In this document: piece by piece, positions 26,962 through 29,649 of the stretch
Position numbering within the stretch: position 1 is the stretch's first letter
Layout: every line of letters begins with the position of its first letter
Origin: Chloroherpetonaceae bacterium
GTDB lineage: Bacteria > Bacteroidota > Chlorobiia > Chlorobiales > Thermochlorobacteraceae
NCBI GenBank assembly: GCA_025056565.1
Contig: JANWWA010000009.1
Location: forward strand, 1-64,000
DNA length: 64,000 nucleotides
Direction: 5' to 3'
Made by a program: the position numbers and the translations under genes
Notes under the pieces: model-generated
Database searches by the model: none
Told to the model about the DNA's origin: nothing
What the model saw: the letters and a program-made list of their open reading frames with translations, nothing else

Positions 26962-27942
26962 ATGATTCTTATCACAGGAGGCGCCGGCTTCATTGGTAGC
27001 GCAATGGTCTGGAAACTCAACCAAGTGGGCTACACCGACATCATCATTGCTGATGAACTGGGCAACTCCGAAAAGTGGAAAAACTTGGTTGGGCTACGCT
27101 TTGCCGACTACCTACACAAAGACGATTGCTTGCAGAAAATCCTCTCGGAAAAATTTCCCCGCCTTGATGCAATCATTCACATGGGCGCAATTAGCAGCAC
27201 CACAGAGCGCAATATGGATTTGCTGATGCGCAACAACTATGAATACACCAAAGACCTTGCTGTGTTTGCGGCACAGCGCTCCATTCGGTTTATCTATGCT
27301 TCCAGCGCTGCAACCTATGGTGATGGCTCACAAGGCTACGATGATGATGAATCCAAACTCCACACATTGATGCCGCTCAATGGGTATGGATACTCTAAGC
27401 ATCTTTTTGACCTTTGGGCACAGCGCAAAAATCTGCTAAACAAAATTGTAGGGCTGAAATTTTTCAATGTCTTTGGCGCAAACGAATATCACAAGGAGGA
27501 GATGGCAAGCGTGGTGTTCAAAGCGTATCAGCAGATTTTGCAAACTGGTACGGTGCGGCTCTTTAAGTCGCATCACCCCAAGTTTGCCGATGGAGAGCAG
27601 ATGCGTGATTTTGTCTATGTCAAAGATTGCGTTGAGGTGATGTTCTGGCTACTTCAGAATCCGAATGTAAATGGCATTTTCAACTTGGGCACGGGCAAAG
27701 CCCGCACATTCAAAGATTTGGTGGCAGCAACCTTTGCGGCAATGGAGCGCCCTGTCAGCATTGAGTATATTCCGATGCCAGAAGCATTGCAAGGAAAATA
27801 TCAATACTTCACCGAGGCGCGTATGCAAAAGCTCTATGCTGCAGGTTGCCCCGTGCGCTTCAAGTCATTAGAAGAGAGTGTAACGGATTATGTGCGCCAG
27901 CATCTGATGAAACCAATTCCGTATCTGCGAGCAACAGACTGA
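26962..27942 (+). CDS. hldD: ADP-L-glycero-D-manno-heptose 6-epimerase
   Basis: A 326-residue short-chain dehydrogenase/reductase-type epimerase that makes the heptose donor for LPS core. The NADP-binding motif GGAGFIGSAMVWKLN opens the protein. HldD-specific features follow: IADELGNSEKWKNLVGL, the HMGAISSTTER loop, YGYSKHLFDLW with the catalytic Tyr-x3-Lys, GLKFFNVFGANEYHKE and MRDFVYVKDCV. The ATG at 26962 fits the family; the upstream open frame back to 26773 has no match. The next gene starts directly after the stop. It works in the same pathway as the GT9 enzyme at 15952-17103. Confidence 0.95.
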   Translation: MILITGGAGFIGSAMVWKLNQVGYTDIIIADELGNSEKWKNLVGLRFADYLHKDDCLQKILSEKFPRLDAIIHMGAISSTTERNMDLLMRNNYEYTKDLAVFAAQRSIRFIYASSAATYGDGSQGYDDDESKLHTLMPLNGYGYSKHLFDLWAQRKNLLNKIVGLKFFNVFGANEYHKEEMASVVFKAYQQILQTGTVRLFKSHHPKFADGEQMRDFVYVKDCVEVMFWLLQNPNVNGIFNLGTGKARTFKDLVAATFAAMERPVSIEYIPMPEALQGKYQYFTEARMQKLYAAGCPVRFKSLEESVTDYVRQHLMKPIPYLRATD

Positions 27943-28611
27943 ATGAAACCCACCGTGGTCATGCATCTTCGCGCCATAGACTTGAATGACGCGCTAACCT
28001 TTAATCGGCTGAAAGGGGATATCAAGAAAGCCATCTCAACGGCAAACTTGATTTTAGTGCACAGCAATAGCACCAACCACGCTAATACTACAAGTTCAAT
28101 TGGCGCACTGAGGACACTTAACAAAACTTTTGCAGCAAAACTCTCAGAGGAACTCGTGCCAGCACTGGCGCTGGCTGCTCATCACTTGGGACTAATTGTG
28201 CCACAAGCTGAAGCGAGTAACCTCTTGCACACAAATTGGCGGGTGAGAGGTGAGCGGTTGCAAGAGTTGTTGTCACAAGGCAGTGTGCCCGTATTTGCCC
28301 CGATTGTGAAAGAGAAAAGTCAGACTGAGGTTGTAGTGCAAAGTGAATGGCTTGCTGCCTATCTTGCGGCGGCAATCCAAGCCGATTTGCTTATTTTTCT
28401 GATTGAAACGAAGGGAATTATTGAGGCAGGCAAGACCGTTGAGCAACTGACTATGCACGAGGCAACTGGTTCTTCAAGACTGGAAGTGCAGTGCGCAGGT
28501 CGAAGTGTAGCGCTAGGGACAAAACGCGCTGTCGTAACCGACATAGGTGGAATGGAAAAGGTGGTGCTGCAACATCAGTTTGCACCAACGGAGATTTTAA
28601 GAAACCAATAA
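27943..28611 (+). CDS. Divergent amino-acid-kinase-fold protein (acetylglutamate-kinase-like, catalytic motifs lost)
   Basis: A 222-residue protein whose order of segments follows the amino acid kinase fold of ArgB: an opening strand VVMHLRA, LILVHSNS, an SVPVFAPI strand, then WLAAYLAAAIQADLLIFLIETKG and EQLTMHEA. The catalytic parts do not hold up. The opening strand lacks the K-x-G-G motif, the H-G-G-G loop reads H-S-N-S, the N-x-x-A-D motif reads VQSEW, and the late phosphate-binding Lys is not seen. It is also shorter than ArgB (about 290). So it is probably a non-catalytic relative. Its ATG directly follows the hldD stop with no spacer, so translation is coupled. The fold assignment is inferred by eye. 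Confidence 0.55.
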   Translation: MKPTVVMHLRAIDLNDALTFNRLKGDIKKAISTANLILVHSNSTNHANTTSSIGALRTLNKTFAAKLSEELVPALALAAHHLGLIVPQAEASNLLHTNWRVRGERLQELLSQGSVPVFAPIVKEKSQTEVVVQSEWLAAYLAAAIQADLLIFLIETKGIIEAGKTVEQLTMHEATGSSRLEVQCAGRSVALGTKRAVVTDIGGMEKVVLQHQFAPTEILRNQ

Positions 28612-28626
28612 AAAGGAGCAGGCACT

Positions 28627-29649
28627 ATCGAGAAGAAATTTTCCCTCAAAGGCATTGAGCCGATGTTAGTCCTTGGGGCGCAAGATGCCTACTTGCGCCG
28701 AATCGAGGAGCAATTCCCCGATGTGTTTATCATTGCGCGTGGCAACGACATTACCTTGCGTGGCAGCGACTTTGAGGTCAAGCTGGTTGAGAAAATTTTT
28801 GCAGAGCTGCTGTTTCTGGTCAATCGCAACGGAGAACTGCACGCCCGTGATGTTGAGGCCGTCATCAAGCTTATTGTGGCAGGAGAGACGGCACCAGCGA
28901 CTGCCGCACAAGAAGGAGTGGACGATGTGATTGTCGTAACACGCACCGACGCTGTTCGAGCCCGCACGCCCGGGCAGCGTCGAATGGTGGCAGAAGCCAA
29001 ACGCAACGATATTGTCTTTGCAATCGGCCCAGCTGGCACAGGCAAAACCTACACAGCGGTCGCCATTGCCGTTGCTGCGCTAAAGGCAAAGCAAGTGCAG
29101 CGCATTGTGCTAGCACGTCCTGCCGTAGAAGCAGGCGAAAGTCTGGGGTTTTTGCCCGGCGATTTGCAGCAAAAAATTGACCCCTATCTACGCCCACTCT
29201 ATGATGCGCTAAGCGATATGCTCACACCTGAAAAGCTCAAGGAGAATTTAGACAAAAAGGTCATTGAGATTGTGCCACTAGCGTATATGCGCGGTCGCAC
29301 ACTCAATAATGCCTTCATCATTCTGGATGAAGCGCAGAATGCAACCAGTCTGCAGATGAAAATGTGTCTAACACGCTTGGGCACAAACTCTAAAGCAATT
29401 ATCACAGGCGATATCTCGCAGATTGATTTGCCAAACAAGCGTGATTCGGGTTTAGCAGAAGCACCTAAGCTACTGAGCGGCATTGAGGGTATTTCGTTTG
29501 TCTACTTAGACAAAGGCGATGTGGTGCGTCATCGTTTAGTGCGTGATATCATTGACGCCTACGAACGTGGGCGCGCGCAGAAAGAGCAAAGAGACAGCAC
29601 TGCATCTGAGACACAAACAGCAAATCAACCTGAGGCAACATCGCCCTGA
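28627..29649 (+). CDS. phoH: PhoH family ATPase, likely ATC start
   Basis: A PhoH-like P-loop protein of about 340 residues, a family tied to RNA metabolism and stress. It has an N-terminal KH-like region (IIARGNDITLRG), Walker A GPAGTGKTYTA, VEAGESLGFLPGD, Walker B FIILDEAQNAT and the sensor GDISQIDLP. The tail is Gln/Thr/Glu-rich and probably disordered. The first normal start codon in frame is ATG 28663, but family members carry about 12 more residues, and here the frame continues upstream as IEKKFSLKGIEP. GGAG (28615-28618) sits eight bases before an ATC at 28627, and no ATG, GTG or TTG lies between. So either AUC is used or a base was misread. Confidence 0.85.
   Translation: MEKKFSLKGIEPMLVLGAQDAYLRRIEEQFPDVFIIARGNDITLRGSDFEVKLVEKIFAELLFLVNRNGELHARDVEAVIKLIVAGETAPATAAQEGVDDVIVVTRTDAVRARTPGQRRMVAEAKRNDIVFAIGPAGTGKTYTAVAIAVAALKAKQVQRIVLARPAVEAGESLGFLPGDLQQKIDPYLRPLYDALSDMLTPEKLKENLDKKVIEIVPLAYMRGRTLNNAFIILDEAQNATSLQMKMCLTRLGTNSKAIITGDISQIDLPNKRDSGLAEAPKLLSGIEGISFVYLDKGDVVRHRLVRDIIDAYERGRAQKEQRDSTASETQTANQPEATSP

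Follow-up and report, generated by a model that had tools for sequence, protein, structure and literature searches.

What does the gene between hldD and phoH encode in the window, the 64,000-nucleotide stretch of DNA analyzed here, and what could its product do? An initial annotation had read this gene, here called X, by eye as a former amino-acid kinase with an ArgB-like fold, now used as a binding or regulatory subunit, maybe in heptose/LPS synthesis. Its placement of the gene was exact: the hldD stop codon (TGA) occupies positions 27940-27942, the ATG of X begins on the next base (27943), and the product is 222 aa long (Table 1). The upstream neighbor scored above the cut-off of its equivalog model, TIGR02197 (417.3 bits vs. 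274.6).

X belongs to the amino acid kinase superfamily, the window copy scoring 44.7 bits (E 1.8e-11) with Pfam AA_kinase (PF00696), whose cut-off is 24.9. All nine known copies of X matched this model with E values of 10 or less, the best being 2e-14, and a search of the genomes placed eight of the nine X positions above the cut-off, with that of G005 absent from the listing. The best NCBIfam model for window X was the ArgB equivalog TIGR00761, at 38.7 bits and well under its cut-off of 151.3. PRK05279, the NCBIfam model for amino-acid N-acetyltransferase, also matched all nine copies within the same E limit of 10 and reached 5.9e-7 in the best case, with 22.3 bits on window X against a cut-off of 344, and Pfam found no GNAT domain within the X reading frame of the nine members.

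Table 1 Position of X, its neighbors and its most conserved regions in the window.
Feature	Coordinates	Strand	Remarks
hldD, ADP-glyceromanno-heptose 6-epimerase	26962..27942	+	upstream neighbor of X; profile match
X, ArgB-fold protein without kinase catalytic and substrate residues	27943..28611	+	222 aa
X helix A region (residues 13-33)	27979..28041	+	second most conserved; invariant L14, D16, L18, F20, R22, L23, K29
X helix C with the strand/loop after it (residues 56-84)	28108..28194	+	most conserved stretch; invariant K61, F63, K66, L67, S68, E69, L71, P73, A74, A79, H81, L82, G83
phoH	28627..29649	+	downstream neighbor of X; conserved N-terminus apparently from ATC at 28627, not ATG 28663

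Distribution of X and the hldD-X-phoH locus

X was found in all nine genomes of one family (coded f1), the Thermochlorobacter group of hot-spring green bacteria; these genomes span four genera, and the reading frame is open in eight. When an X profile was searched against 296 genomes of the phylum, 235 matched at E ≤ 0.001, comprising the 7 f1 genomes in that draw and 228 outside the family, with G264 (7.4e-15) and G065 (6.8e-14) as the best outside matches. Every one of the 29 outside ArgB proteins inspected, from 22 profile-search loci and 7 f4 loci, bears the motifs K.[GS]G, HG[GA]G and N.NAD, and nine outside ArgB loci, read by eye without a model, have arg genes as neighbors. A contig scan with one peptide pattern, which could miss divergent relatives of X, confirmed 6 of 25 stretches, all of them Chlorobi MAGs with contigs as long as those of f1 genomes. 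X was not matched in plasmids, and none was confirmed among viral contigs. Within the searches made, X is confined to one family, so the adjacency of hldD and X that was to be sought across Chlorobiota was not found. Among the open-licence PMC papers listed for hldD with phoH, or for pseudoenzymes with an amino-acid-kinase fold, none dealt with the X gene, and the terms "amino acid kinase family" and "pseudokinase" did not occur together in any open-licence PMC paper.

The gene order hldD-X-phoH is the same in 9/9 f1 genomes. The junction without any gap between the hldD stop and the ATG of X occurs only in the window genome; across the nine genomes compared, the distance from hldD to the listed X reading frame is about 2-61 nt elsewhere. 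An order-level draw contained hldD in 71/71 genomes, and the best-scoring 30 of the 71 hldD loci were compared, 9 of them from f1, with X in between, and 21 from outside. At one outside locus, in the f3 genome G010, hldD lies at a contig end and phoH was not found, which makes it uninformative. In the remaining 20/20 informative loci hldD and phoH are direct neighbors, phoH following about 25-236 nt after hldD, and inspection by eye revealed no remnant of X in the widest of these gaps (L083, 236 nt). Since the direct pair was present in all 20, X entered an older pair; it was most probably inserted between the two genes within a single family, before the f1 members diverged. Its association with phoH is as constant as that with hldD, X adjoining each in nine of nine genomes. 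The special link to hldD and to heptose/LPS that had been proposed for X thus loses its argument.

A promoter and terminator scan detected no terminator-like site on the + strand from hldD to the start of phoH. Promoter-like sites numbered 6, compared with 2.6 (sd 1.5) in shuffled sequences, and none lay on the + strand upstream of X.

Two further features of these loci were observed. First, phoH apparently starts at ATC in the window (28609-28665) and in loci L028, L029 and L030. The stretch from the preceding in-frame stop to the conserved EKKFSLKGIEP contains no ATG, GTG or TTG in G002, in G003 or in the window genome; in the window, AAGGAG stands 8 nt ahead of the ATC. In G001, a GTG precedes the ATC by two codons, and an upstream TTG is available in G005, G007 and 7 of the 8 f2/f4 loci shown, the eighth having GTG. 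Second, in the non-f1 loci L079, L083-L086, L096 and L098-L101, hldD is preceded by the gene of a conserved protein that measures about 134-141 aa and, by eye, resembles a sigma factor.

Fold and active site of X

We utilized AlphaFold2 to predict the structure of X, and the models rest on 8-9 sequences. Window X, modeled from nine family rows, yielded a pLDDT of 81.2 and a pTM of 0.84, and a model led by the G005 copy, built from eight of the nine members with G002 omitted, yielded 84.5 and 0.86. G005 X is the member least similar to the window copy, the two being about 30% identical. In Foldseek, the top PDB matches of the window model were N-acetylglutamate synthase (NAGS) and acetylglutamate kinase (ArgB, NAGK) structures, NAGS 2r8v coming first (E 2.7e-14); for the G005 model, NAGKs stood on top and NAGS 2r8v ranked only 25th. 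VIA-align placed 217 residues of the window model on NAGK 2buf_J (Z 23.6, rmsd 3.0, 17% identity), and 234 residues of the G005 model were aligned with NAGK 2rd5_B (Z 26.6, rmsd 2.6); other NAGKs tie with the named entry in both cases. An alignment by hhalign of nine X sequences against 37 ArgBs, which used no models and for which the ArgB rows had been trimmed at both ends, gave a probability of 99.8% (E 1.9e-29) over 227 columns. X is therefore co-linear with ArgB over its full length, and the structure prediction and fold search returned a fold of NAGK/NAGS type. Together with the AA_kinase score, these structural matches confirm the ArgB-like fold that had been read by eye.

The models also locate where X departs from this fold. 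Neither of the two contains a helix ahead of strand 1, which begins at residue 4 in the window model and at residue 5 in the G005 model. Helix B is missing from the window model, and the G005 model has a helix at that place. The lid region is reduced in the window copy.

We then compared the active-site positions of X with those of ArgB in a merged alignment. The account in PMC2851564 assigns ArgB catalysis to K8, D162 and K217 and the contacts to N-acetylglutamate to R66 and N158. Each of these five residues, and N160 as well, is present in 37/37 ArgB controls. In X, K8 is kept in none of the eight readable rows, which carry H, Y or S (G002 has no residue there), and N158 is kept in none of nine, being replaced by V, I, D, F or L. 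Around R66 and K217 the alignment is gappy, and the counts there are best read as a region lost or remodeled: R66 corresponds to a gap in three members and to T, A or S in six (kept in 0/6 residues present), and K217 to a gap in six and to E or D in three (kept in 0/3). Other positions are partly retained. The catalytic D162 is D in 5/9 copies, E in two and K in two; N160 is N in 1/9; an acid at position 181 is found in all nine; the His of HGGG is kept in eight of nine, and six of eight still have the second Gly of KxGG. This partial retention of D162, the acid at 181, the His and one Gly makes some contact with a nucleotide, metal or substrate possible.

A motif scan led to the same picture. 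K.[GS]G, HG[GA]G, N..AD and [GQD]GM..K were each found in 0/9 X sequences, G002 being represented by a 186-aa piece without the N-terminus, whereas 37, 37, 37 and 31 of the 37 ArgBs carry them. The absence of K-x-G-G, H-G-G-G, N-x-x-A-D and the late Lys, first noticed in the window copy, thus extends to the whole family. G.R.T was likewise seen in none of nine X sequences vs. 37/37 ArgBs. The arginine motif E[LI][FM][TS]xxGxGT occurs in no X in either a strict or a relaxed form; 15 of the 37 ArgBs have the strict form and 21 the relaxed one. With the lysines that anchor ATP, the residues that contact N-acetylglutamate and the majority of the glycines gone, and with the lid reduced in the window copy, X most likely no longer transfers phosphate.

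Conservation and possible roles of X

Identity to the window copy is 26-46% for X and 66-88% for hldD and phoH. To estimate selection, dN/dS was calculated for six chosen pairs among eight genomes, with G002 omitted; G000-G003 gave no value, and the other five pairs gave 0.201, 0.145, 0.145, 0.097 and 0.222 for X, values that are not independent because the pairs share genomes and that include two pairs with X dS > 2 (G004-G007 and G000-G001). The first three values belong to the closest pairs, in which hldD and phoH gave 0.056-0.094. The ratio for X was 1.7 to 4.1 times that of hldD in the five pairs and exceeded that of phoH in four; in G004-G007, phoH (0.105) was slightly over X. Judging from these ratios, X is under purifying selection, looser than that on hldD.

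Conservation is concentrated in two helices. Counting the start Met, 29 columns of X are invariant, and mean identity among eight members is highest in helix C with the following loop (0.69) and in helix A (0.63), and lowest in the lid (0.25), a C-lobe loop (0.27) and residues 85-112 (0.29). Eleven invariant positions are charged or polar: D16, R22, K29, K61, K66, S68, E69 and H81, on helices A and C, and D148, R195 and E205. In NAGK, as described in PMC3182869, both helix B and helix C take part, together with a hairpin, in the contacts between subunits, and the B-C hairpin serves as the substrate lid. A helix C that is conserved most, next to a drifting lid and ATP lobe, is what would be expected of a protein in which an interface was kept and the chemistry dropped.

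X is probably a lineage-specific pseudoenzyme that has the amino-acid-kinase fold of its ArgB relatives, stands alone and acts by binding. For an ex-kinase that lacks its catalytic residues and is held by purifying selection, a binding or regulatory role is likeliest, and descent from a kinase of the ArgB group with such a role is the likeliest reading of X. This much of the initial annotation is supported, the former kinase and the binding or regulatory subunit; its assignment to heptose/LPS is not. X would keep the fold and may dimerize through helix C as NAGK does, an idea weakened by the missing helix B in the window model. The eight invariant residues on helices A and C could then make up a surface on which a partner protein or a small ligand docks, and HldD, PhoH and canonical ArgB are candidate partners.

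Amino-acid-kinase domains with a regulatory role are known as fusions to another domain, as in NAGS. As a protein that stands alone, is selected and has lost its anchoring lysines, X would offer a clean example of how a metabolic kinase becomes a binding protein. As far as searched, this reading concerns one bacterial family, and the active paralogue in the same genome allows a comparison. X resembles ArgB/NAGK (TIGR00761, PF00696) in fold, strand-helix order and full-length co-linearity; it differs in falling under the TIGR00761 cut-off, in lacking K8, R66, N158, K217 and HG[GA]G, and in having no N-terminal arginine helix in its models. A similar mode of action, an inactive relative that binds and tunes its partner, is described for pseudokinase regulators of the Fam20A type in PMC10211241, although these have a different fold and occur in different organisms, and for X the mode is only proposed.

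The classical NAGS amino-acid-kinase domain is not known to have kinase activity. This domain of N-acetylglutamate synthase (ArgA/NAGS) is the closest precedent for X, sharing the ArgB-like fold and ranking first when the window model was searched with Foldseek. The bifunctional NAGS/K enzymes differ from our reading of X in that their amino-acid-kinase domain is an active kinase. According to PMC4490483, the domain in NAGS mediates oligomer formation and arginine control, with the main activity residing in the NAT domain. By analogy, X might form mixed oligomers through which it regulates either the canonical ArgB or a distinct acetylglutamate synthase, which we consider unlikely. The coexistence of canonical ArgB with X fits this proposal, as do the NAGS match (rank 25 for G005) and the PRK05279 matches of all nine members. 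X differs from the NAGS protein in having no GNAT domain in its reading frame. Against the proposal, the arginine motif is found in 0/9 X sequences, the helix before strand 1 is missing from both models, and X is not near the arg genes argJ and argB, which sit together on contig C4, on one strand and with argJ upstream. Since argJ is present, this genome has no strict need of an acetylglutamate synthase.

Slightly less likely is an enzyme with relocated catalytic residues and another substrate. Its appeal lies in the 11 invariant charged or polar positions, in the catalytic Asp kept by five of nine members and in the pseudoenzymes that, as reported in PMC10211241, proved active through migrated residues. 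Yet both halves of the active site decay together, with the glycine-rich turns, the lid and the K217 region lost or variable, and 8 of the 11 invariant polar residues sit on helices A and C or their adjoining loops rather than in the C-lobe, which holds ATP in NAGK.

A more specific form of the binding role, which we regard as quite unlikely, is that X is an adaptor, either coupling HldD, and with it the supply of sugar nucleotides, physically to PhoH, an ATPase that handles RNA, or tuning one of these proteins. If true, X would be a stand-alone pseudo-amino-acid-kinase acting outside amino-acid metabolism in hot-spring Chlorobi. A heptose/LPS factor that binds HldD specifically, as originally suggested, is improbable: X directly follows hldD in nine of nine genomes, at 0-61 nt, and gmhA and an hldE-type gene are present in the genome above their cut-offs, but these two lie on other contigs, hldD occurs without an adjoining X in the 20 outside loci, and the greater age of the hldD-phoH pair means that position alone cannot single out hldD. 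That X is a decaying gene without function is very improbable, since the fast divergence from the window copy and a frameshift in G002 X near an A/T run (L029 6590-6740), for which a real lesion and an assembly error are both possible, are set against its retention in all nine genomes of four genera, open in eight, the 29 invariant columns and dN/dS well below 1 in 5/5 measurable pairs.

Origin of X and its paralogues

Canonical ArgB with all motifs was read in eight of the nine f1 genomes, so genomes with X retain a paralogue of the active type; for G001, the evidence for ArgB consists solely of a Pfam match in a frame about as long as ArgB (C73, 309 aa frame). The phylogeny called for in the initial annotation was run on nine X sequences and 37 ArgBs, and all nine X formed one clade (100/100) on a long stem. 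This long branch limits how closely the source can be placed within the ArgB group. Grouping X with the family's own ArgB, a test planned beforehand, was disfavored (p-AU 0.020). Grouping X with Chlorobi-type ArgB, chosen after the tree had been seen, was not disfavored (p-AU 0.44), and the placement of X beside G264/G091 in the best tree, likewise chosen afterwards, was weak (82/45). A simple duplication of the resident argB thus appears disfavored as the source of X.

The window genome encodes five AA_kinase proteins, X and ArgB included; the others are two long proteins and one that we take, from its length, to be of PyrH size. Judging from how many AA_kinase matches there are and how long they run, ProB (glutamate 5-kinase) may be absent from most f1 genomes. 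One further ProB candidate was noted in G005, at C4:421961-422668.
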